64,000 nucleotides of DNA, from contig NC_092675.1 in NCBI RefSeq assembly GCF_964355755.1, forward strand, positions 15,947,312 to 16,011,311, given 5' to 3'. Made by a program: the position numbers and the translations under genes. Within the stretch, counting starts at the first letter, position 1, and each line of letters starts with the position of its first letter. The notes below the pieces were generated by a model that was not told where the DNA came from, did not search any database, and saw only the letters and a list, made by a program, of their open reading frames with translations. Shown piece by piece: positions 2,912 through 49,802 of this stretch. Origin of the DNA: Antedon mediterranea (lineage: Eukaryota; Echinodermata; Crinoidea; Comatulida; Antedonidae).

Positions 2912-3733
2912 ATGAGAATTTCTACCTCTCCGGGTGGCACCTACCTCATTCATAGCCTAGTCCCATTCTCGGATTCCTTCTTTGAATCTAGTGCATCAAA
3001 CATCAGTACTGATTCATCAACCGAGTCACAATCTGATATATTCGGGACTTCATCATCGTCATCTTCTCGCAATGGACCTACTCTTCGTTGCGCTTTACTA
3101 AATTCTCGGAGTTTAAAAAACAAACTTACTTGAGTTTCAAGCTGTAGTTTCAATCAATAATTGATGTTACGGAAATATGGCTGAACTCTACTATACCATC
3201 TACTTTAATTTAAATTACGCAATTTTCAGGACAGAAATCGTCATGGAGGTGGTGTGATGCTAGCTGTCGCAAATGGACTTTTATCTTCCATTATAGATCT
3301 TCCACCAGATGTTACAACCGAAGTAGTTTTTGTTCAATTAAACATTGGATCAAATAAGTGGATTTGTGGAGCTTACTATAGACCCCGTCCGACACTGGTA
3401 GTATCGGACTCTTACGCAGGCGTCATCTTGTTGGGTGATTTTAATATCGAATTTTCGCCTAATATTACTACGAAACTAAAGTCGAATTTATTAGAGAATT
3501 TATCTGAAGCGCTATGTTTTGATCAACTTTTTCGTGACGTTATTCGATCATCCGATGATTTGAAATCTAATACAATAATTGATCTGATATTTACCTCACA
3601 TCCAGATCGTTTGTGTGATGTTAGAACTGTGGCTGGTATTGGCAACTCTGATCATAATATGGTGTCAATTAGAAAACGCGGCTCTTCTGGTAAGCTTCCA
3701 AAGATGATCCGTGAATTCTATCATTACCATTAA
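2912..3733 (+). pseudogene. LINE endonuclease (APE/EEP-type) remnant
   Basis: 2912-3133 gives a Ser-rich linker (SDSFFESSASN ... GTSSSSSSRNGP) and the first endonuclease block LRCALLNSRSLKNKLT. After frame breaks (3133-3254) come HGGGVMLAVANG, WICGAYYRPRP, GDFN (3434-3445) and GIGNSDHNMVS (SDHN at 3647-3658). The last two hold the catalytic Asp/Asn and Asp-His of this metal-dependent nuclease family, which nicks target DNA to prime reverse transcription. The frame stops at 3733. The ITETWL-type block is broken (EIWLNSTI at about 3170). Calls rest on motif order and are firm for the family. Confidence 0.8.
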
Positions 3734-5392: not shown

Positions 5393-6134
5393 ACTTAGGA
5401 AAGGATACTTGGAACAATCGTATTTCAACAGAAGAATTGAGTTAGGTCTATTGTCGAAAATAGACTTGCTTTCATTAATATGTCCTTTATTGCCAAATTA
5501 CTTATTTCTCATAGATCTGATTTTATGTGCAATTTTATTGAATTTTTTGTTATTAACAAGAGGCATCAAGATGTCTCGTTTCATCAGGGTATCGATAGGA
5601 CTGATGCGTACAAATATTCCGGAGTTTTTCGTTTTCCAAAGGCTTTTTCTGTACTGCATGTGGGGGATCCGTAATTATCTCATTGAAAGTTTAAAGCCAG
5701 TTTAAAACAATGTTATACTGATGTTTAATTGTTCTAGATTTTTTTTCGACTTCAAGGTCTATTTTTATAAACATTTTTGTAAATATAATGACGAATGTAC
5801 AATAATCTACTATTTATAATACAAGTATCTATTTTTATAAATCTATCTCTAATGTACAATAATCCTTTTTTTTTATAATATGAGCATCTATTTTTATTAT
5901 CTATCTCTAATATAAAATACTAATTTTTGCACAGTATTTTATTTGTTCTATGTTTTGTTTTATATTGAATTTTATTTGTTGATATGTATTGTTGACGTGG
6001 GTTTGGTTAAGCATATCTTTTGATGACAGTTTTTTTAACTTTTGCTTTACCTCGACAGCCTTGTTCAACTTGTTTGTTTCTGATTGTCGAAAGATTGAAA
6101 ATAAAAAAATAAATAAATAAGATAAAAAATAAAT
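5393..6134 (+). repeat. LINE C-terminus remnant, AT-rich 3' UTR with internal repeats and A-rich tail
   Basis: 5480-5674 reads KRHQDVSFHQG and GVFRFPKAFSVLHVGDP, a degraded RT C-terminus. From 5745 to 5930 a block with atctatttttataaatctatctctaatgtacaataatc-type words recurs about three times. The segment ends in a stretch rich in aaataaataaata (6100-6134), as expected for a LINE 3' tail. No terminal gene is present. Confidence 0.5.
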
Positions 6135-9745: not shown

Positions 9746-12700
9746 GTATGTAATATTGATTCTACACAAATAGCAAAACCTGTACAGTTTAACTTGATTT
9801 CGTAATTCAATATCACCATGGTATCACAGTACCATAGGATGCTGAACTTATAAACGCATTATACCTGTAGATTACTAAGATAAACGCAAATGTCTAATGA
9901 ATCAAATCATTATATGCCTATACAATGTGAATAAAATATACTAAACTAACAAACTGAACTAACTTAATGTCTAAAAATAAACAGCTTGTGATATCAGCTA
10001 CCTAGTGATTGTCACACTCAGTATGTGACAACGAATACGATCATCATAATCATAATTCAATTTTTAATATTTCTGGTATGTTCTTCACAAAGTATAGAAC
10101 GTTTATTTCCATAAAGTTTGAATTATTTGCTGTACCCTATTTCTCAATGAAATGATTCTATCAAAGGCTATGTAATTACAATGTCCTATACATGCCACAA
10201 GTCTTTAATAAACGTAAATAATTATTACAATGTTTATTCCCAATACCACTTTTACCACCACCACCGGAAATTCTGGCGCACGCGCGAAAAAAGTCCTATT
10301 TTATTTATTTAGTTGTCTGTTTCTCTATAGTGTTTTGAGAAATGTCCCTTGGTACAACCAGGCAATAATAAAATTGTCTGTTGGTGCAAAGATCATAATA
10401 ATGTCATGGCAAAAAGTATTTCACAATAAAACATGCAACTTCCTTAAAATTATTCAAATTGGAGTTTACACGAATTTAGAAATCTATAACATTATTATTA
10501 CAATAATTATTGTGAAACACTTATAAAACTATAATATTTCAGGTGTTGCGTATTGTAATTACGATGAATTTGTATGCGTAAATGGTAGGTGTATATCTGA
10601 CAGATGGATTTGTGACGGGGACAACGATTGCGGAGACAACACGGATGAGTTCTCCTGTCCGCGTGTTACTTGTGATGAAAACGAATTTATGTGTGATGAC
10701 ACAAGTTGCATTACGCATCGATGGAAGTGCGATGGTGATACAGATTGCCTTGACTTATCCGATGAGTCTGATGAAATATGTATGGTTGAACGGAATGGAT
10801 GTTATGATGACGAATTTACCTGTGATAATACAGAATGCATTGTTAGACATTGGCAATGCGACGGAGAAGATGACTGTACAGACGGATCTGATGAATCTAA
10901 ATGTCGTAAGTTGTTTCATTGGTGTCTACAGGATTTATGACGTGAGCTTTCTACAGTTAGTTAGACCAGACCGGGGACCAGACACACAAAATGATAGGTG
11001 TAAGGTGTACCATATTAAAAGCATAAGCCAAGATAGTCTAAGAAATAATTAATGCAATCTAAGTATATTCAATAACTGAAGTCAAGTAAGCCGTAAAGAT
11101 ATAAAATAATATTCAGTGATTCAGGTGTGTCCAACAGTGTTCTAATGTATTCAAGGACCATCTTTGGGCACGTCCGAGATGGCACGCGAGAAAACGAGCC
11201 TATCTAGTATTCAAAATGAACAACACGATGTGATAAGCTACATGTGCCTTTTCATTTCCGTAGGTGATTGCTCTTTGAATCTGGAGGGTGATTATCATTG
11301 TCACAAAAATTCGTGTCCGATTGGTTTTGCGTTAAATATTTCTAATCAATGTGAAGACATCGACGAATGTAAACAATTGAATTCAAATGTGTGCAGCCAA
11401 GAATGCAGAAACACCGTCGGTGGTTTTTCTTGTTCTTGTCTGGACGGATATATTCTCGTAAACAATAACTGCAGAGCTCTTGGGCCTACCGGTACCCCGT
11501 TTGTTGTCTTCTCCACCAGGATTGATGTTCGCAAATACATCCCATCACAAAGAGTCTACACATTGGTGGCTAATAATCTATCAAGTGCCCTTGCTCTCGA
11601 TTTGGACATTAACAAGAAGGAAATATACTGGACTGATGTGGTTCAGAAAAAGATCTTTCGCGCTAAGATTAATATATCGAAACCTGAAGTATTTATTGAC
11701 GTACAAGATCAAGCAGAAGGTATTAGTATTGACTGGATCTATCGAAATGTTTACTGGACTAATAAAGCAAAGAGGATCATTGAAGTTGCGAGTCTTGACG
11801 AACCAAGCAAACGATCCGTTCTAATTTCAAACAATTTGCATATGCCTAAAGACATTTCAGTTGATCCGAGAGTTGGGTAAGTTAAATTATTTGTCAGGGC
11901 TTTATACTTCATGGCGTATATAGGCTATTTTTTTATTTCATACGCAACAGCGAGTAACTTGCCAATTACAAGTATACCGGTACTTTATAATGTATCGTGC
12001 TTATAAACTAAGTCTCATTTTAGGCTCAGGAAGTGGAGTTGAACGAGTAGTAAGTTAAAGCCCTCGCACTAGGTCAGGATTGAATCTTAGACCTTGAGAT
12101 TGGAAGGCAAGTACGTTAACCACCAAGCTACAACTCCTAATATTGTTGATATCCTACAGGTACATGTTCTGGTCTGATTTGGGAGAAAGAGCTATGATTG
12201 AACGAGCAGAAATGAATGGACAGCGGCGACAAACTATTGTTGACACCTCCATCACCTGGCCAAATGGGTTGTCCATCGATATAGTGAATGAGCGTTTGTT
12301 CTGGGTCGATGCTAAGCTCTATAGTTTGAGTAGTGTGGATTACGATGGTTTGAACAGACGCACAATAATCCAATCAGAATCGATTCTTCCTCATCCATTT
12401 TATATCACAGTATTTGAAGACTATGTTTACTGGACTGATTTAAAGGAAGGGCGTGTTATGAAGGCCAATAAATTTACTGGCGAGGGTATTACTGTTTTAG
12501 TTGAAAATCTGTTAACACCTATGGGAATTCAGATATATCATCCTCAAAAACAAATGCAAGGTGAGATGTTATTCACAAAGGATGATCAGTAAAACCGGAT
12601 ACAGTATTTATGAGGAGGGGTTGTTGAGCCGTGAAATGTGCAAAAAGTCACATTTGTGCAAACAACCACATTTGTGCAAACAACCACATTTGTGCAAACA

Positions 12701-15700
12701 TGTTGCCTTCAAATGTGCAAACAACCACATTTGTGCAAACATGGCACCCTCATAATGTGCAAATCTGTAAAAATGTATAATCCACTAATGTGCAAACATC
12801 ATGCCGTTAAATGTAAAAACGATTAGTTTTGACGTTAAATGTGCAAATGAAATTCTACATTAATGTGCAAATCAGTTTTTTCAACCTAAATCGAACTATC
12901 GGACCCATAATGAACTGAGTTAATTAGATATTATTTCTGTTATGCGCGATTTGAACAATGTATGCAATTTGAAATTTATTGACGATTTTCTTGCATCAAT
13001 ATTCACATTGCGCATGGTATTTTCAGTGATTGATAAAACCAAAGCTCATTGAAATCCGTATAAATTAATAAAAATGCAGCTAAAAGAATAGATGTTATTA
13101 AAATTTCGCAAATATTTCTTGCACAAATTCAAATGCGCAACGAAATCTTTGTGCTATTTTAAATCACGCATAAAATTTACCTTCGCTTAAGGATTATACC
13201 ATATTCATATACCTACTTCATCTATATTATTTTCCTGTTAATTAATTTTGTTAAAGAAAATTATTTGCGCAAGAAAATCCTCATAATTTAAAATTGCATA
13301 CATTGTCCAAATCGCGCATAAAAGAAATACATTTTAAATTAAATAATATAAAAAAGTTGTCCTCTTAATTTAAAGGAAATTCACAAAAGATAACTCAGTT
13401 CATTATGTTTTGTGAATTTTAAGGGATTTCAATGGTATGGAAGTCTCCATCTTCAGCAAGCAGCGACCACGTGTCAGTCTTGCATCGCCGGCGAGGACAT
13501 ACATGGTTGTGGTTTTTCAAAACAAATTATTTCAGCCTGTACTACAATTAAGTGGCTATATCTTAAAAACATTGTTAGAAAAACCCGTGACTAATTAGAA
13601 TTAGGTTATCATTTTGAATGAACAATTTTGGTTGAACAAAAATTATTTTCACGTACATTTGTAGAATTTCATTTGCACATTAATTTTAACGTCAAACTGA
13701 TCGTTTTTACATTTAACGGCGGGATGTTAGCACATTATTGGGTTATACATTTTTACAGATTTGCACATTTGAGGGTGCCATGTTTGCACAAATGTGTTTT
13801 TTGCACATTTGAATGCAACATGTTTGCACAAATGTGGTTGTTTGCACAAATGTTTTTTGCACATTTCACGGCTCAACAGAGTATAGTAAGTAAATTTTAA
13901 TAGAAATTGAAATTCGAGGTGAACTACAGTATTTGTTTTTCAATAGATAAACTTGGCAAATACAATTATTAATAAAGATCTAACATTTCTAGCACTAGGC
14001 CTACAATATCAATACTTACATATTTGTGTTGAAAGACAATTTGAACGATCTAATACAATCCCGAATTTGGAAATTCTTATGAAGGCCTAAATTATTTGTT
14101 TCCCGATCTTGTTTGGACAATTAATCGCTTCATTCATACATATTCCTCCTATTTACAAGAAAATCCATTTATTCATAACAATAATACATGAATAATATAA
14201 AATTCTAATATTATTAGGAATTGTGAATCACTGTGAAGGTCAAAATGGTGGATGCTCTGATCTGTGCGTAGCTGCTCCAAGACTTAGAAACCCCTATCAT
14301 GCTAAATACTCTTGCCTTTGTCCCAACAACTCGTCACTATTTCCAGACGGACTAACATGCGATGAAAAAAAGAATCCACCAACACAATCTCATAATCAAA
14401 CGGTTGATTCATATACGATAACAACAGGTAAATATAATATTGCTTAATGTGTATATAAATTTAATTATTTTAACTTTGAATAAATCAGATCATAAGGAGG
14501 ATTTACTTACTTACTTTTGAATATTATCGTGAAACTTCATCAATAACCAATAATTTAAATGAGGATAAGAAGATAGAAGACACATTCCCAGGATTAATTA
14601 AATCAACAGATTGGTTACTTCATAAACATTTCAAATCATATGGAAAATGAATAAATATACAACAATTATGAACATATTAATAATAAAAGCAAGAAATATA
14701 AGTGGAAAACGGACGGCACAGCAAGCAAGCTTTAAACATAATATAAACATTGTGAATAGAAAATGAGTAGAACAATATTTTCTGTCTACACACTATCAAA
14801 CTAGTTTGACATGTCATCATGTCCTTATATGGGCACATCACATACTTTTTTTATCACATAAAGTTATAGTGTAGACAACAAATGTAGAATCTCATTAACC
14901 GTGAATCAAAAGTGGAAGTAAGCAAGAACGTAATGAACTGGTGTCATCCTCAGCTATGATCCGATGACCTTCAAGGATTATGTAATCGATATAATATAAT
15001 ATTCAAGATTGTAGAAATATATGCTATAGTTAAATTTTATTTACAGCACAAGAGTATTGTGTTCAAACAATATGGGCCTTCATAAGGTTGTAATTGTTTT
15101 ATGTAATGGAAAACGGATGATATGTAATTATGCTGGGTGTCGATTGTAAAGAAGAAAAACATGATGTTTGAATCTTTTTGGATGAGTTAGACTTGACATA
15201 AAAGCCATCACTTTGTTAAAGGATTTGACTTTATACAAACTGGTATTATATTATAAGTGACCAATGTAAGGTCAATAGTTGGTGTGTACATCATAATACA
15301 GTAGAACTCCTTTGGAAAAGCTCTATTAAGGAAACACTTTCTCGTGAAATGAACGAGGGGTAATACTTTGACACATGGTCAACTATTCTGTTTGGGGGAG
15401 ACGTTTTTGGTCCCAAAGATGTCCACTTAAATAGGAGTTCTGATCTATTAGGAGTATAATTGTTTATAAATTTCGATATATAAGACGAACTACGGTGAAT
15501 AATGACTAAAGCTTATATAATTTTTTTATAGATACCGCCATGAGTGACCACTCAAATTTGTCTTCAAATTATCTTCTGCCTACAATTGTATTCGTATTAC
15601 TCGCCATTCTACTAGCTGTAGGAATCTTCATTTATTGCACGTAAGTTTTATACACGATATGCTAAATTTGACTCGTCGATACTTTGTACCCTCTTTTATG

Positions 15701-25454: not shown

Positions 25455-25605
25455 TTTTAGTCGCGTACAAACGCGACTCTACAGCTCACTATTTCGGTCG
25501 GTCGGTCGGTTGGTTGGTTGGTTGGTCGGTCGGTAATCACTAACTCAAATTTGCGCACGCAACTGCAGCCATGTATAATGGCCTTGTTAATAGTAAACAT
25601 CATAT
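25455..25605 (+). repeat. Hairpin plus (GGTC/GGTT)n dispersed repeat, copy 1
   Basis: A perfect 7-bp stem gtcgcgt-acaa-acgcgac (25460-25477) is followed by ctctacagctcactat, a 40-bp ggtc/ggtt tract (25495-25534), and a trailing part with ggccttgtt. An inverted second copy is at 30850-30975. Confidence 0.7.
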
Positions 25606-30849: not shown

Positions 30850-30975
30850 TAGTTTGTGACCTTAAATTAGATCTAAACAAGGCCATGTGTACCGACCAAC
30901 CGACCGACCAAACGACCGACCATCCGACCAATCGACCGACATAGTGAGCTGAGAGTCGCGTTGTACGCGACTAAA
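30850..30975 (-). repeat. Hairpin plus (GGTC)n dispersed repeat, copy 2 (inverted)
   Basis: aaggccatg, then a gacc-rich tract (30891-30940), atagtgagctgaga, and the stem gtcgcgt-tgt-acgcgac (30955-30971). Read on the minus strand, the order is the same as in copy 1. Confidence 0.7.
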
Positions 30976-42730: not shown

Positions 42731-42878
42731 ATTTTGACACATGTGAGCCCGATAAACAAAAACAAGGAAACAAGTATTGGTTGTAAAGTTATTTAATATG
42801 AATGGCAAGTCATCGTTGCAGCATGCACGTAAAAGGAAAACATAAAAAAGGAACATTGGGATGCTCTGAAAGGGCCAA
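42731..42878 (-). repeat. Ngaro terminal repeat B2
   Basis: 148 bp starting attttgacacatgtgagccc; same sequence as B1 at 43056-43203. It is the 3' end of the element. Confidence 0.9.
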
Positions 42879-42935
42879 AACACATGTCTCAAAATCGTAA
42901 TTGAAAACAAAATAAAGAGGGAGTGGAGGGAGGGA

Positions 42936-43057
42936 AGTGAAAATTATTTTACTTAGCCAAAAACTGGCGTGGTAATCTGTTGACAGCGTGAGGTGAAGAG
43001 GATGAGATGCTCACGCTGTCAAAAGATGATTGCGAGGGCGCCCCGCAATCACGTGAT
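42936..43057 (-). repeat. Ngaro repeat A2
   Basis: 122 bp identical to A1. It contains an internal hairpin: gacagcgtgag ... ctcacgctgtc, and a second one, gattgcg ... cgcaatc. Structured ends like these may guide circle formation. Confidence 0.92.
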
Positions 43058-43203
43058 TTTGACACATGTGAGCCCGATAAACAAAAACAAGGAAACAAGT
43101 ATTGGTTGTAAAGTTATTTAATATGAATGGCAAGTCATCGTTGCAGCATGCACGTAAAAGGAAAACATAAAAAAGGAACATTGGGATGCTCTGAAAGGGC
43201 CAA
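43056..43203 (-). repeat. Ngaro repeat B1
   Basis: 148 bp, identical by eye to B2, directly abutting A2. Confidence 0.9.
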
Positions 43204-43269
43204 CACAGTTGGCAACGAAGGGGCCAACGAAGCAGCCCAAATTAAGTGCAGGTAGAACCGATGACAAGC

Positions 43270-43720
43270 CATTCAGATGATGGTGCAACATATGTTGACA
43301 CCCAGAACGTATAGAAACTATCTACATAGTCTACCTGGAGCAACATGTGTTGACTCCAGTACCCGGTTGACCATTAGCGCCTGATAGGTGGAGCAACCAA
43401 ATATTGACATCGAAAAACGTATAGAAACACCTACATTAGTCTACCTGGAGCAACATGTGTTGACTCCAGTACATGTTTAAACATTTTAATTAGGTAGGCA
43501 GTGTAATCAAATGTTGGCACCGAAAAACGTATAGAAACAATCTACATTAGTCTGCCTGGGGCAACATGTGTTGACTCCAGTACGCGTTTGAGAATTGAGT
43601 TTAATAAACGGTGCAACACCGAAAACATATAAATAACTTATTAGTCTACCTGGAGCAACGTGTTGACTCCGATTGAACATATGATTATAATTGGCGGTGC
43701 AACCTATGCTGTCACCGAAA
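43270..43720. repeat. Tandem array, about 110-bp unit, about four copies (Ngaro 3' region)
   Basis: ctacctggagcaacatgtgt, followed by tgactcc, recurs at about 43331, 43441, 43552 and 43646. cgaaaaacgtatagaaac recurs between. Spacings are 110, 111 and 94 bp. It lies between the recombinase remnant and B1. Confidence 0.8.
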
Positions 43721-43819
43721 GAAAACAAAAATAAAATAAGTAAAATGATATACAGAAAAAATAAGTATCAACTTTGTTTAAGCTTGACGCTTAATACCCA
43801 GTCATGCTTAGGAAATATG

Positions 43820-44425
43820 CCAACCAGCCAGCACCCATATTTACAACGCTGTATTTGACAAAGTTATGTGGTTCGACCATCGTCCAAAAATCAAAATGTC
43901 TTGGTGAGAGTGTCAAAGTTGGTGAAGGTCGGTAGCTCGACCGATTCTGAAAGAATGAGTGTTAAACTGTGTATGTTCCAGACTAGCATGGCGAGCTAAT
44001 TGTTTATAGCATTAGTGTGTGTTCTGCGGCCTTGGAGACTACTGCTTCACTGGCTCTGAGGCATGCGAAGTAACATATTATGAACAAGGCTCTGTATAGG
44101 ATGAATTCGTATTTGGATTTCATGCTACCTCGCATATGTCCAATTAGCGTTACAAGAATGTCGGAGGTGACCGGCGGTCTGATCGGTTTGGATGGAGAGT
44201 TCGTTTTTTGTTTCGCTACTCCTCTGCATAAATTGCTGACTGCTGGATTTGCGGTAAGGTCTTCCATAAATGATACCCTGTGCACGAATGACACTGGGCT
44301 AAGGTAGTTTCGAATCGTGGAAATCGCCAGTGCATTTTTAGTCAGCTTACTTACATAGAGAACAATTGTCTGTGGAGTCGCTGGCAGCGGAAGGCTTAGT
44401 GATTTCCCGAATTGGTTAAAATGCC
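43820..44425 (-). pseudogene. Ngaro tyrosine recombinase (YR) remnant
   Basis: On the minus strand the frame from about 44423 reads LPLPATPQTIVLYVSKLT and ISTIRNYLSPVSF (SAM-like N-terminal domain), then RPPVTSDILVTLIGHM and YRALFIICYFACLRASEAVV (the first catalytic Arg in CLR). A stop at 44004 follows. Beyond it come NTHSFRIGRAT (catalytic HxxR, 43941-43961) and FGRWSNH. The final catalytic Tyr expected after GRWS is not visible (LSNTA instead), and more stops intervene. This enzyme class inserts the circular cDNA; this copy cannot. Confidence 0.8.
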
Positions 44426-44473
44426 ATTTGCTTTTATAGTTACTAGCGGTTCATTTACTTAATGAGTTCCACA

Positions 44474-44955
44474 TTAGCTCTCGTGTGAGGATCTTGAGTT
44501 GTTTAGTGGTTCGAAGTAGATTGGTTGTAAGTGCTTTGGTATCTTTAGCGGTGTGCGGTTCATACTGTGCTCCTCTAGCATGGCCTCCGTTTCCTGAAAA
44601 CGAGAAAGAGCGTCACATATCCTGTTTTGCTTACCAGGGATGTGCCTGGCTGTAAACTGAATGTTGTTTAGTAGTAACAAAAGGACGATAGCGCGAACCA
44701 CTCTCATGACCTTTTCGTTTGATGACAATTTTTTGTTAAGCACATATACATCAGCTAGGTTATCACAGTGGAAAACTACATGGGTGTTGGCTAGCTGTTT
44801 TGCAAAAATCGAAAGCATGACATAGATGGGGTAAATTTTGAGAACCATGATGTCGAACATTTTCCAAGTTTCCGGCCAGCGGCCTTGAATCCAGAACTTT
44901 TGGAAGGTCGCACCAAGTGCGGTTTTTGAGGCATCAGAGAAGAAATGTAAACGCT
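44474..44955 (-). pseudogene. Ngaro RNase H domain remnant
   Basis: On the minus strand FFSDASKTALGATFQ (first catalytic Asp) is followed by a degraded ELxPI-type block (LKIYPIYVMLSIFAKQL), VVFHCDNLADVYVLNKK (the DN motif) and FTARHIPGKQNRICDALSRF. These are the landmarks of the RNase H that follows RT in DIRS/Ngaro elements. The catalytic Glu position is changed (KIYP where ELFP is usual). Confidence 0.82.
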
Positions 44956-45229
44956 GCGAGTCAAATTTTTGTGGGGGTGAAAAATGGTAACGCCATTGTG
45001 TTTGCTAAGAAAGTCGGCCCAAATTTGGAGATCCTCCTTTGCTGAGTCAGAAAGGTGAATAGTTGAAAAGGGGTTAGTTAGACCGGCCGTTAGGGCATTA
45101 AGCCTTCTTAGGAACGCCAGTCCAGAGGGTATAACCCAGGTGGCAAATTGTAGCTTTTCAAAGAGATTGGGGGGCTCTCAATGTAATTGAGTGAAGTTTT
45201 GAACTTTAAAGGGAGTAACGTAATTTTAT

Positions 45230-45960
45230 TATCTCAGATGGAAGCCTGTCTTACATTTTCTGTAAATCAAGTTCAATACCCAGGAAGGAAATGGTGGTGG
45301 TGGGTGAAATTGTTTTGTGCGGTGCTAGAGGTATGCCACCGCGGTTAGCAAGCGCCTTGGATATCTTCAAGGAGTTCGCACACAGTTGGTGTGTGTCTTC
45401 AATGGAGGATGTCGTCTAATATTTTCACGTTATTGGGCTGTTTTAACTTTTTTATAAGGAAAAATTTCACTCCGTCAGAAAACTTATTGAATATTTGACA
45501 CGAAGATCCGCCGCCTTGGGGAAGCGTTTTATCGTAGTAATACTGGCCTAACCACGTGAAACCTGTGAGGTGATATTGAGTGGGATGTAAATGTATTAGT
45601 CTGTATGCGTCACTGGTGTCCGTCTTGGCCATGAATGCCGGGTGATTGTGTATGTCAATTATGTCTATTGCGTTGGCAATTGTTTCGTAATGAACTGTTA
45701 TGCAAAACCCAGGGATGTTGTGATTGACAGCGTTTGAGTCGTAGGGATAGGAGAGGTTGTGGAGGATACGACATTTTTCAGGTACGGAATTTCCGGAAGG
45801 TTGTTGATGATAGCTTGGGAGTTAGTTGCTGTAAAAGCAGCCCCATGTAAGGTAGAAGCCATGAGCAAAACATAGGGTTAAGCGTGGTGTTTGTAACCAG
45901 ATAGGAGTGCGCTTATTCTAGTGGGAATTATTGGGATCCCGAGCACTGAAAAACGAGTGG
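45230..45960 (-). pseudogene. Ngaro reverse transcriptase remnant
   Basis: Minus-strand blocks in order: ISALLSGYKHH, a frame change, VPEKCRILHNLSYPYDSNAV, FMAKTDTSDAYRLIHLHPTQ (motif A), YYYDKTLPQGGGSSCQIFNK, and VKILDDILH (LDD at 45411-45419). A one-base frameshift right after LDD leads to EDTHQLCANSLKISKALANR and TISFLGIELDL. The order fits the RT of DIRS/Ngaro elements, which use LDD rather than YxDD. It is inactive through several breaks. Confidence 0.85.
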
Positions 45961-46079
45961 CGATATTGACAGTTTGTCTGGACACATCTATTGAATCTGT
46001 TATGGTAGGAGAAGCCGAGTGGACGCTCCACGGTTGGATGGGTTAGAGGTTTATGGTTAGCTCGTTGCGTCTAGTTTAT

Positions 46080-46488
46080 GCAGGAGGTCGGCTCGAACAG
46101 ATGACCAAGAGCAAAGTGTGTACTCAGTAGCCATTCGAAATTATCAGTCGTAAAAGTACCATTAATTTGGATGACTGCGCATGAGGTATTTAATATACTT
46201 AAAATAATTAAGATGTCCTGTGTATATTTACTTAAATAAAATTGTGGCAAAGTCGTGAAAGGCCTAGTGCCAGTTGTGTTCGTTTAAGATGCAGCATTTG
46301 GGCTTAGGCACAAGTTCAAAGGTACCAGTGAACGTTGGCGTCAAAGCTTCCGCTGCGCTGTTGAAGTCGAGCAGATTGTGCAGCTCGATGAATTTGTGGG
46401 AGATTATTTTCTCTTTAAGTTTTTGACAAGGTAGGGGGTTTGAGGAAGAGAGCTGCCGGTAGGTTCGGCTTAGCGACATTAATCTCAA
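46080..46488 (-). pseudogene. Ngaro ORF1 (Gag-like) C-terminal remnant
   Basis: Minus strand: KLKEKIISHKFIELHNLLDF, then CILNEHNWH, stop, AFHDFATILF, WYFYD, FRMATEYTLCSWSSVRADLL. The spacing W...AF..........YD..FR.......W matches the conserved tail of the Gag-like ORF in DIRS/Ngaro elements and sits just upstream of RT. Three or more in-frame stops are present. Confidence 0.6.
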
Positions 46489-46571
46489 CCACAGAAGTTA
46501 CCAGGGTTTTGACGATATGCCTCATGTCCTTTAATTCTTATTTATGTCAAATTCAGGTACTGGCACATTTC

Positions 46572-46593
46572 TTTTTTTTTTTTTTTTTTTTTT
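46572..46593. repeat. Poly(T) run of about 22 (poly(A) on the element strand)
   Basis: An uninterrupted T run inside the Ngaro element, between the minisatellite and the Gag-like region. Confidence 0.9.
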
Positions 46594-46799
46594 GGTGCCG
46601 TATTTTTTACCTCTTGTTAGTTCTTTTCCGTCCTGACATGGTGTACCTGTAAGAAAATCGTTGTGCAATTAAGACGGAAAGAAAGATGTTTGTGGACAGA
46701 TATCATCAAGTTGCAGGGGAAAAGGGCCCTGCAACCATGTTAAAGGAGGAAAAAAAAAAAGATTGGAGACAAAAGTCAGCATTGGGGTAGAGAATGAAA

Positions 46800-48935
46800 C
46801 CAGCATGAGTCATTTAAAGAAATGCTGTACTTAGGAGGGTGATAAGACACCACCGCCGTATGGGGTGATAGTAGGGGGACCAGCATGAGTCATATAACCA
46901 GCATGAGTCATATAATGAATGCTGTACTTAAGAGCATGAGTGATAAAACACCGCCGTATGTGGGGGTAGTTAATGAACCAGCATAAGTAATTATGCGGTG
47001 GTAGTAGGGAAACCAGCATGAGTCATATAATGAATACTGTACTTAAGAGCATGAGTGATAAAAACACCGCCGTATGTGGGGGTGGGTAATGAACCAGCAT
47101 AAGAAATTATGTGGTGGTAGTAGGGTTAATGAACCAGCATAAGGCATAAGTAATTATGTGGTGGTAATAGGGGAACCAGCATGAGTCATAATATAATGAA
47201 TGAACCAGCATAAGAAATTATGTGGTGGTAGTAGTCATATAATGGTAAACCAGCATAAGAAATTTAAGGTGGTAGTAGTCATATAATGGTAAACCAGCAT
47301 AAGAAATTATGTGGTGGTAGTAGTCATATAATGGTGAACCAGCATAAGAAATTATGTGGTGGTAGTAGTCATATAATGGTAAACCAGCATAAGAAATTAT
47401 GTGGTGGTAGTAGTCATATAATGGTAAACCAGCATAAGAAATTATGTGGTGGTAGTAGTCATATAATGGTGAACCAGCATAAGAAATTATGTGGTGGTAG
47501 TAGTCATATAATGGTAAACCAGCCTAAGAAATTATGTGGTGGTAGTAGTCATATAATGGTAAACCAGCATAAGAAATTATGTGGTGGTAGTAGTCATATA
47601 ATGGTAAACCAGCATAAGAAATTATGTGGTGGTAGTAGTCATATAATGGTGAACCAGCATAAGAAATTATGTGGTGGTAGTAGTCATATAATGGTAAACC
47701 AGCATAAGAAATTATGTGGTGGTAGTAGTCATATAATGGTAAACCAGCATAAGAAATTATGTGGTGGTAGTAGTCATATAATGGTAAACCAGCATAAGAA
47801 ATTATGTGGTGGTAGTAGTCATATAATGGTAAACCAGCATAAGAAATTATGTGGTGGTAGTAGTCATATAATGGTAAAACCAGCATAAGAAATTATGTGG
47901 TGGTAGTAGTCATATAATGGTGAACCAGCATAAGAAATTATGTGGTGGTAGTAGTCATATAATGGTGAACCAGCATAAGAAATTATGTGGTGGTAGTAGT
48001 CATATAATGGTGAACCAGCATAAGAAATTATGTGGTGGTAGTAGTCATATAATGGTAAACCAGCATAAGAAATTATGTGGTGGTAGTAGTCATATAATGG
48101 TGAACCAGCATAAGAAATTATGTGGTGGTAGTAGTCATATAATGGTAAACCAGCATAAGAAATTATGTGGTGGTAGTAGTCATATAATGGTGAACCAGCA
48201 TAAGAAATTATGTGGTGGTAGTAGTCATATAATGGTAAACCAGCATAAGAAATTATGTGGTGGTAGTATTCATATAATGGTAAACCAGCATAAGAAATTA
48301 TGTGGTGGTAGTATTCATATAATGGTGAACCAGCATAAGAAATTATGTGGTGGTAGTAGTCATATAATGGTAAACCAGCATAAGAAATTATGTGGTGGTA
48401 GTATTCATATAATGGTGAACCAGCATAAGAAATTATGTGGTGGTAGTAGTGAAACCAGCATGAGTCATATAACCAGCATGAGTCATATAAAGAATGCTGT
48501 ACTTAAGGGCATGAGTGATAAAACACCGCCGTATGTGGAGGTAGGTAATGAACCAGCATAAGAAATTATGTGGTGGTAAAAGGGTTAATAAACCAGCATA
48601 AGAAATTATGTGGTGGTAGTAGTAAAACCAGCATGAGTCATAAAATGAATGCTGTACTTAAGAGCATGAGTGATAAAACACCGCCGTATGTGGGGGTAGG
48701 TAATGAACCAGCATAAGAAATTATGTGGTGGTAGTAGGGAAACCAGCATGAGTCATGTAATGAATGCTGTACTTAAGAGCATGAGTAATATAATGAACCA
48801 GCATAAGAAATTATGTGGTGGAGTAGGGAAACCAGCATGAGTCATATAATGAATGCTGTACTTAAGAGCATGAGTAATAAAGGAGTCTTAATATAATGAA
48901 GATGAACTTGGGGAACCAGCAAGAGTCATAAGATG
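46800..48935. repeat. Composite minisatellite inside the Ngaro element
   Basis: The outer parts (46800-47200 and 48450-48935) are irregular copies of a roughly 115-120 bp unit made of ccagcatgagtcatataatg, aatgctgtacttaagagcat, aaaacaccgccgtatgtggg and ccagcataagaaattatgtg. The centre (47202-48449) is about 28 copies of a 45-bp unit made of only the last block plus gtggtagtagtcatataatgg. The 45-bp unit seems to have been cut out of the larger unit and amplified. It spans where coding sequence between the hydrolase-like and Gag-like regions would be expected. Confidence 0.92.
47202..48449. repeat. 45-bp tandem array, about 28 units
   Basis: The period is exactly 45 bp over most of the array. 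One early unit (about 47250) is shortened and one (47870-47880) has an extra A that breaks the reading frame. Because 45 is a multiple of three, long frames run on both strands; I regard these as by-products. Units differ mainly at ggt(a/g)aacc. From about 48010 to 48420 the two variants mostly alternate, suggesting a 90-bp higher-order unit. Confidence 0.95.
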
Positions 48936-49258
48936 AATGCTATACTAACTATAAACCATTCAGATTTGTGCAAAATATTTGCCAGTTTAGCGTAGCATCA
49001 AGAAAGAAAAAAAAAAAACAAGTTATTATTTATTTCTTTTGGATGTAAAACAATGGGAAAAAAAGAAATGGAGTCAACAGTGTGTTGCCTGGCATTTTAT
49101 TTTGTTTATTCTGTTTAATTATGTATTTATTTTCCTCTAAAATCCGGTTCCGGATTGTCCACAGTGACGCAGTAGTAGAAACAGATAATAAGATTGTTGT
49201 TATTTAATGCATGGCATACTTAAGTTAGCATAAGAGGCTCCGTGCATGAAAGCAGACC
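48936..49258. other. Ngaro interior without recognisable coding sequence
   Basis: AT-rich with A-runs, between the minisatellite and the hydrolase-like remnant. Nothing further is supported. Confidence 0.5.
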
Positions 49259-49635
49259 TTACTTTTTAACTAGGTCATTCGATCCGAGGTCGATTATCAA
49301 AAATCTGGCTTGAATGTTGCCACTTGATTTACAAAATTAGTTAGGTCGTTTATCTTTAGGCCGGGCACCCCCCAAAGAACAGTATTATCATAGTGATAAC
49401 TGATTCGGAAGTCAGGCAAAGGTCGATGTGAACCAAGTATGGAGTCCGAGTCGGACGAATTACCCAAGCCGTGATGGAAAGCGAGGCTTTCGCTCAAACC
49501 GGAAACGAATGAGTTGTGCCTAGGGCTAGGGCATAACCAGACAACATAATTACAGTAAAGTACGAAAAATCGAACAGAATGGGGGTAAGATAAGGTGTTA
49601 GATAAATTCCAGTCAAAGATATTGTGTGAGTTCAC
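49259..49635 (-). pseudogene. SGNH/GDSL-hydrolase-like remnant of the Ngaro element
   Basis: Minus strand: HNSFVSGLSESLAFHHGLG (a degraded GHS/GDS block), then TVLWGVPGLKINDLTNFVNQ, VATFKPDF and stop. Shifting one base restores FLIIDLGSNDLVKK (GSND at 49274-49285), the GxND block of SGNH hydrolases. Block I (Ser), the conserved Gly and GxND thus appear in order; the C-terminal DxxH block is not seen. SGNH-type hydrolase domains have been reported in Ngaro/DIRS-like elements. The catalytic Ser context is degraded here, and the frame is broken. Confidence 0.6.
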
Positions 49636-49680
49636 ACAGCCTATAAGTGTATGAGGATAAAATGAACTGGTAAATGTAAA

Positions 49681-49802
49681 AGTGAAAATTATTTTACTTA
49701 GCCAAAAACTGGCGTGGTAATCTGTTGACAGCGTGAGGTGAAGAGGATGAGATGCTCACGCTGTCAAAAGATGATTGCGAGGGCGCCCCGCAATCACGTG
49801 AT
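49681..49802 (-). repeat. Ngaro terminal repeat A1
   Basis: 122 bp identical to A2 at 42936-43057. It is the 5' end of the element on the minus strand. Confidence 0.92.

Follow-up and report, generated by a model that had tools for sequence, protein, structure and literature searches.

The 64,000-nucleotide stretch of the crinoid Antedon mediterranea analysed here (NC_092675.1, positions 15,947,312 to 16,011,311; hereafter the window) contains, on its minus strand at 42732..49801, a 7,070-bp retrotransposon that is a Ngaro element by structure, non-autonomous and chimeric, and whose family lost the catalytic segment of its recombinase before it spread. Comparison with related copies elsewhere in the assembly makes it very probable that an already defective lineage spread in trans and that the window copy is a young member of it. 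A first-pass annotation, made from the letters of the window alone, had proposed that another element's proteins mobilised this copy; breaks shared among copies and the presence of open-frame relatives support that proposal, movement itself being what we infer from these sequences.

Read along the minus strand, the element has the order A1 - body - B1 - A2 - B2, the split direct repeats of Ngaro elements. A1 (49680..49802) and A2 (42935..43057) are identical over 123 bp, one more than the 122 bp first counted, and B1 (43056..43203) and B2 (42731..42878, the 3' end of the element) are identical over exactly the 148 bp noted before. Because exact repeats of 123 and 148 bp recur in the same order at many loci, chance is excluded. 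Boundaries were set by comparing the ends with five empty copies of the target repeat and are ambiguous by 1 nt, since the outermost one or two bases of A1 and the outermost base of B2 may belong to the target; the span first assigned, 42731-49802, is correct within one base. The element lies inside a dispersed repeat whose two halves are found adjacent elsewhere in the assembly, and all five empty paralogues fetched read straight through the site. Insertion without target-site duplication is a trait of the Ngaro-like family, and no such duplication is seen at the dispersed-repeat or the satellite empty sites, one T being of ambiguous origin in the empty satellite monomers. Every listed 5' flank (19 of 19) ends in AT before the motif CA(C/T)GTG, fifteen of them in ATAT.

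The body between these ends is broken. It consists, all coding remnants lying on the minus strand, of an SGNH/GDSL-hydrolase remnant (49297..49755, 152 amino acids to the first stop), an array of 28 tandem 45-bp units (47191..48450, strand not assigned), a gag remnant (46071..46639, with its start manually assigned to the homologue of the gag ATG in L016, an open-frame relative described below), a reverse transcriptase (RT) remnant (45399..45821, a 140-amino-acid frame), an RNase H remnant (44474..45004, a 176-amino-acid frame separate from RT), the N-terminal part of a tyrosine recombinase (44004..44450, a 148-amino-acid frame ending at a 224-bp deletion), and 110-bp tandem units between recombinase and B1 (43295..43583, strand not assigned), related units occupying the same place in the open relatives. 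The gag and RT remnants carry deletions, frameshifts and stops. By Pfam, the RT remnant reaches RVT_1 at 26.3 bits (E 7e-6), below the 29.6-bit cutoff, and the RNase H remnant matches RVT_3 weakly (E 0.017); up to E 1 the hydrolase, gag and recombinase remnants are unmatched, one weak unrelated match aside, so the domain names rest mainly on the open relatives, the hydrolase being named from Lipase_GDSL_2 in L016. The description of the body as wrecked is confirmed, RNase H surviving as its 176-amino-acid frame. The missing catalytic tyrosine is likewise confirmed: a 30-bp deletion, with its junction at 43875..43876, takes out what in the open relatives is the sequence SSSAFKRYIR; in those relatives we take CLRASEA, HSFRIG and KRYIR to be the recombinase boxes.

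Relatives of the element, labelled here with L numbers, were collected from the assembly by searches in which all RT candidates (106 of 106) and recombinase candidates (107 of 107) were scored, together with 40 of 67 for B and 40 of 81 for A; copy numbers are lower bounds. The sample comprises 17 loci of 6.6-8.5 kb, plus a small extension and 16 further pieces. Sixteen defective copies (the window and L001-L015) were aligned to L016 from gag through recombinase, L011 and L012 starting later in gag. Eight insertions or deletions relative to L016, at its positions 2865, 2878, 3199, 3221, 3526, 4265, 4338 and 5854, are present in all sixteen, among them a 2-bp RT deletion, a 218-bp gag deletion at 3221 (219 bp from 3220 in L012, a 1-bp difference in placement) and, at 5854, the 30-bp deletion over the tyrosine segment. 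All sixteen also have stops at the same seven codons of the L016 gag and RT frames. Stops shared across loci had been named in advance as support for a moving defective lineage, and the same internal breaks do recur from copy to copy. The tyrosine segment is absent from all 22 family copies that have the recombinase 3' region (the sixteen aligned plus L019-L024). Outside this count stand L027, a more distant defective copy that keeps the segment but has Asn for Tyr (letters read by eye), L026, cut before the segment, and L025, L028, L029, L031, L032, L033 and L034, with no recombinase match within the stretch fetched.

Other losses are shared by fewer copies. A 1-bp deletion at L016 4517 occurs in 15 of 16 copies; a 106-bp deletion occurs in 14, having been swallowed in L001 and L008 by a deletion of 248 bp; the 224-bp recombinase deletion occurs in 13, L012, L013 and L015 being without it; a 1-bp deletion at L016 2906 is confined to L002, L003, L004, L006, L007 and the window; and a 19-bp RT insertion is found in four. 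The losses are thus nested, and breakage was stepwise. Counts of exact 45-bp array units (L011 and L012 excluded) are 0 in L016, L017 and the older defective copies L009, L013 and L015, 1-7 in L005, L010, L014, L008 and L003, and 18-26 in L001, L002, L004, L006, L007 and the window. A DNA transposon with inverted ends of about 150 bp sits at one hydrolase site in L003 (736-1655, with a 9-bp target duplication) and in L014 (about 2000-2343), the two inserts being 88-93% alike.

Several of the loci sharing these inactivating mutations are separate insertions. Flanks of at most 300 bp, 14 on the 5' side and 17 on the 3' side (31 in all), were compared at E 1e-6; most are unrelated or are repeats more diverged than the elements, and those with relatives belong to three repeat groups, L003/L004/L017, L007/L008/L014 and L009/L010. 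In each group, flanks on the same side of different defective loci are 74-87% alike, L008/L014 excepted, against 97-99% for the elements they border. Eight of 18 copies have one or both flanks in one of three tandem repeats (L003, L004, L007, L009, L010 and L017, with L008 and L014 by the 3' flank), a share from which no preference for satellites is claimed; several of the satellite-flanked copies sit at the same monomer phase in separate loci. L034 and L007, about 20 kb apart on contig C1, have identical last 25 flank bases before A1, through duplication or through insertion at the same satellite phase. By eye the copies seemed to cluster near one point per chromosome, but a Monte Carlo test on 30 merged loci gave no significant result (close neighbours, P = 0.18; median distance, P = 0.10), and clustering was rejected.

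The identity of the split repeats had been taken to mark a recent insertion, with gene conversion between repeats as the alternative. Across 15 of the 16 defective copies (L014 has no pair), substitutions between pair members increase with terminal branch length (Spearman rho 0.84, p = 1e-4, n = 15), L009 falling below the trend. Because repeat-pair divergence increases with copy age, the identity of the window repeats marks a recent insertion rather than gene conversion, which is disfavoured. Neither the A nor the B pair shows a difference in the window, L002, L006 or L007, and L004 has only an extra base; L008, L010, L012, L013 and L015 each carry private, unconverted changes in single repeats. 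Zero differences in about 269 bp per member is compatible, by hand arithmetic, with up to roughly 0.6% divergence. The window body, by comparison, differs from the open relatives by 6.2% from RT through recombinase and by 11.5% on the gag side, so that the ends are not as diverged as the frames, in agreement with the first-pass annotation; from its closest siblings, L004, L006 and L007, the body differs by 0.4-1.4%.

An intact partner with matching ends had also been called for, and two were found, L016 on contig C11 and L017 on contig C9. Each has four stop-free frames, of 230 (L016) or 278 (L017), 417, 717 and 342 amino acids. In L016, Pfam finds Lipase_GDSL_2 (38.7 bits, cutoff 32.9), RVT_1 (45.8, cutoff 29.6) and Phage_integrase (28.6, cutoff 27.1), with RNase H below cutoff and no match in the gag frame; reverse transcriptase and tyrosine recombinase thus occur together in an element to which the window remnants are homologous. 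No methyltransferase domain, present in DIRS1/PAT, was found by Pfam in the four open frames of L016. The ends of L016 depart from those of the family at one internal column and the last base of A and at five columns of B, and the bases of A and B diagnostic of L016 and L017 are present in every pair member compared. Between the window family and the open lineage the ends differ by 0.9% in A and about 4% in B, and within L016 the two B repeats agree at all but 1 of 153 sites. The open lineage is about as young as the family, L016 and L017 being 0.3-0.5% apart and L002, L004, L006 and L007 0.3-0.9% among themselves, and the satellite that holds L003 and L004 also holds L017. For a more distant relative, L030 (RT about 59% alike), no A or B match is listed at E 1e-8, the short matches of two repeat-rich features lying outside that listing.

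Divergence from L016 is uneven along the element. At the DNA level the window differs from it by 13.4% in RT, 3.0% in RNase H and 3.2-3.6% in recombinase (3.2% in the N-terminal part), and the hydrolase, gag and RT of the family are 10-16% different; by 150-bp blocks, the window is 6-16% from L016 up to about L016 position 4450 and 1-6% beyond. L012, L013 and L015 are 5-13% from L016 at 5500-5800. Synonymous divergence to L016 is 0.17 in RT and 0.05-0.07 in RNase H and the N-terminal recombinase (Fisher p = 1.5e-4), and 0.09, on 35 sites, in the short 3' recombinase piece. Since synonymous divergence falls in the 3' part too, its closeness to L016 is attributed to an exchange of that part. The 5' part resembles a second source. 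From L026 and L027 the window differs by only 3.5% in hydrolase (L026 only), 4.5% in gag (L027) and 4-5% in RT, and it shares with them the 218- and 106-bp deletions and the stops at 2952, 2970 and 3063, those at 2973 and 3057 not being found in L026/L027; in RNase H (L026) and recombinase (L026, L027), it is 3-4% from L016 and 8-9% from L026/L027. Informative sites for L016 against L026 number 23:99 in the 5' part and 65:10 in the 3' part (Fisher p = 1.4e-21), and against L027 13:71 and 21:4 (p = 4e-10), neither the RT-RNase H linker, with 8 sites favouring L016 and 25 favouring L026, nor A1 being included in the test. The family is therefore chimeric: its 5' half is older and defective, its RNase H-recombinase half comes from the open lineage, and one exchange near the RT/RNase H boundary is the simplest history.

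Capture of the helper's 3' part, with the B1-A2-B2 ends downstream of it, might keep or renew the mobility of the family, and if so would allow a non-autonomous tyrosine-recombinase element to track its helper as that helper diverges. We put this forward only as a tentative suggestion. A1, the end for which the comparison was made, gives no clear signal (3 sites for L016, 2 for L026) and so lends no support to a transfer of the ends with the 3' part, which weakens the suggestion.

Defective copies evolve neutrally, and the open pair does not. Variation among the defective copies comprises 87 synonymous, 198 nonsynonymous and 14 stop variants (omega 0.86, p = 0.26). Variants found in at least two of them (16 synonymous, 36 nonsynonymous and 3 stops), mostly older than the last insertions, are also neutral. 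Between L016 and L017 there are 10 synonymous and 3 nonsynonymous differences (p = 3e-4). Fixed differences between L016 and all defective copies (57 synonymous, 87 nonsynonymous, 7 stops) show a synonymous bias (p = 0.002), in keeping with a branch that was coding for part of its course. The RNase H and N-terminal recombinase frames remain intact in many defective copies, and tests on them found no selection (omega 0.88 and 0.89; p = 0.66 and 0.73).

A usable RT or recombinase is missing from every family copy read, the family has no usable Gag either, and these losses predate the insertions, which argues that proteins from elsewhere did the work. The course of events may be reconstructed as follows. 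An already defective 5' half, as in L026/L027, would have been joined to the 3' half of the open lineage, for which we propose template switching; the tyrosine segment would have been lost next, after which most copies lost 224 bp more, the 45-bp array grew, and spread continued. An autonomous Ngaro whose ends are nearly those of the family, most likely one of the L016/L017 lineage, would supply the RT that copies family RNA, the split repeats would be regenerated in the helper's replication cycle, and the helper's tyrosine recombinase would insert the product without target duplication.

Several observations weigh against this spread in trans, and the alternatives draw on some of them. If each copy had instead inserted intact and decayed in place, with the A and B pairs kept identical by gene conversion, the window repeats would be less surprising, as its terminal branch of 0.0055 predicts about 2.9 repeat differences and none is seen (P about 0.06, a hand estimate); some conversion, or mutations older than the insertion, may have contributed in the window copy. 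Breaks common to 16 of 16 copies, and nested, nevertheless largely refute decay in place, pair divergence growing with age and the unconverted private changes in five copies also speak against it, and we give it next to no credence. Multiplication as DNA, by segmental or satellite duplication, is suggested by the 3' flanks of L008 and L014, which are 99.3% identical, so that not every locus is a separate insertion; the 5' flank of L008 matched no other, and its 3' flank is satellite. L023 and L024 have the same matches (flanks of this pair lay outside the comparison), L028 and L029 sit in the same flank sequence, and L034 and L007 are alike in their last 25 flank bases. Duplication may hold for these few pairs; as a general account it is very improbable, because flanks mostly show either no relationship or more divergence than the elements do, empty sites exist, and, where both ends were fetched, most copies begin exactly at A1 and finish exactly at B2, the exceptions being L014, which lacks A2 and whose 5' end was not found, and L015, in which B2 reaches the edge of the fetched stretch. 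Also weighing against spread in trans are the DNA transposon at the same site in L003 and L014, non-sisters in the tree, and the base of 13 differences for the selection test on the open pair.

Other doubts concern the helper and the route. Given that the window is 6-16% per block from L016 in gag and RT, part or even the whole of the mobilisation could be due to a closer helper that is extinct or unassembled, leaving L016 and L017 as mere cousins. This is a minority prospect, though one to be taken seriously: the hydrolase, gag and RT of the family are as distant as stated, the A and B searches scored part of their candidates, and the assembly has N stretches (3,304 N in L028), but the RT search, with all candidates scored, gave no closer copy with long open frames among the matches listed, the window is close to L016 in A, RNase H and recombinase, and L016 and L017 are about as alike as the youngest family copies. 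A route without reverse transcription might also operate, in which the helper's recombinase would excise defective copies and move them as DNA circles. The absence of target duplication accords with insertion of a recombined circle, and the solo A-B loci described below could stem from A1 x A2 recombination; a circle from A1 x A2 or B1 x B2 would by itself presumably not rebuild A1-body-B1-A2-B2, however, and the chimera seems most easily explained by template switching, which leaves circles unlikely. No movement, transcript or circle has been observed, and mobilisation of a defective lineage by a helper's proteins is the reading we retain.

Mobilisation in trans is well documented for long terminal repeat (LTR) retrotransposons and for pairs of long and short interspersed nuclear elements. 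Non-autonomous LTR retrotransposons such as Dasheng, with RIRE2, have a defective body and matching ends and are presumed to be mobilised by the partner; LTR elements use a DDE integrase and produce target duplications. The crinoid family shares the defective body and matching ends, and differs in having an open relative with a tyrosine recombinase and in showing no target duplication. Ngaro-like elements (order DIRS) of, for example, Xenopus and Cafeteria have the structure A1-[ORFs]-B1A2B2 with RT/RNase H and recombinase, and those of Xenopus carry an SGNH hydrolase, according to the portions of PMC9210276 and PMC8547959 consulted. The window family and its open relatives have the same split repeats, RT/RNase H, recombinase and hydrolase. 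Their hydrolase frame adjoins A1, 5' of gag, whereas in the amphibian elements, in the same portion of PMC9210276, it follows the recombinase, and most copies read here, unlike the described Ngaro-like elements, form a non-coding family. For tyrosine-recombinase retrotransposons, trans-mobilisation has been raised for SIRE and VIPER of Trypanosoma cruzi: in the consulted part of PMC6681497, SIRE corresponds to the A2-B2 region of VIPER, and its mobility is left open. As there described, SIRE is likewise a non-coding element with the ends of a coding tyrosine-recombinase partner, and L028 and L029 share its A2+B2 layout; it is a short solo form, in contrast to the full-length window family with its complete split repeats and the internal breaks common to its copies. 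The open-access papers searched contain no mention of elements termed non-autonomous DIRS, Ngaro or YR, or defective Ngaro, subscription papers, Repbase reports and other wordings being outside the scope of that search. In the Antedon assembly a nested, relatively dated series of defective elements occurs together with an open relative that has matching ends, and with empty sites. That about 20 loci carry the loss of the catalytic segment comes near to a natural knock-out and argues that this recombinase need not act in cis.

Some shorter or rearranged forms accompany the family. Solo A-linker-B units of about 328 bp, without a body, occur at L028:5987-6315 and L029:464-792 (contig C2) in the same flank sequence, and probably arose by A1 x A2 recombination followed by regional duplication. 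In L014 the 3' end has just one B before the flank, the form expected if A2 had been lost through B1 x B2 recombination. At L033:275-510 (contig C6) lies a miniature of about 230 bp with clean ends, made up of an A1 of the open-lineage type, about 100 bp of the hydrolase region and only the last 20 bp of B. Elsewhere in the window, two pairs of short tandem arrays appear to be reverse complements, 12637-12763 with 13760-13863, about 1.1 kb apart, and 25494-25534 with 30891-30940, about 5.4 kb apart; these are possibly ends of other mobile elements.

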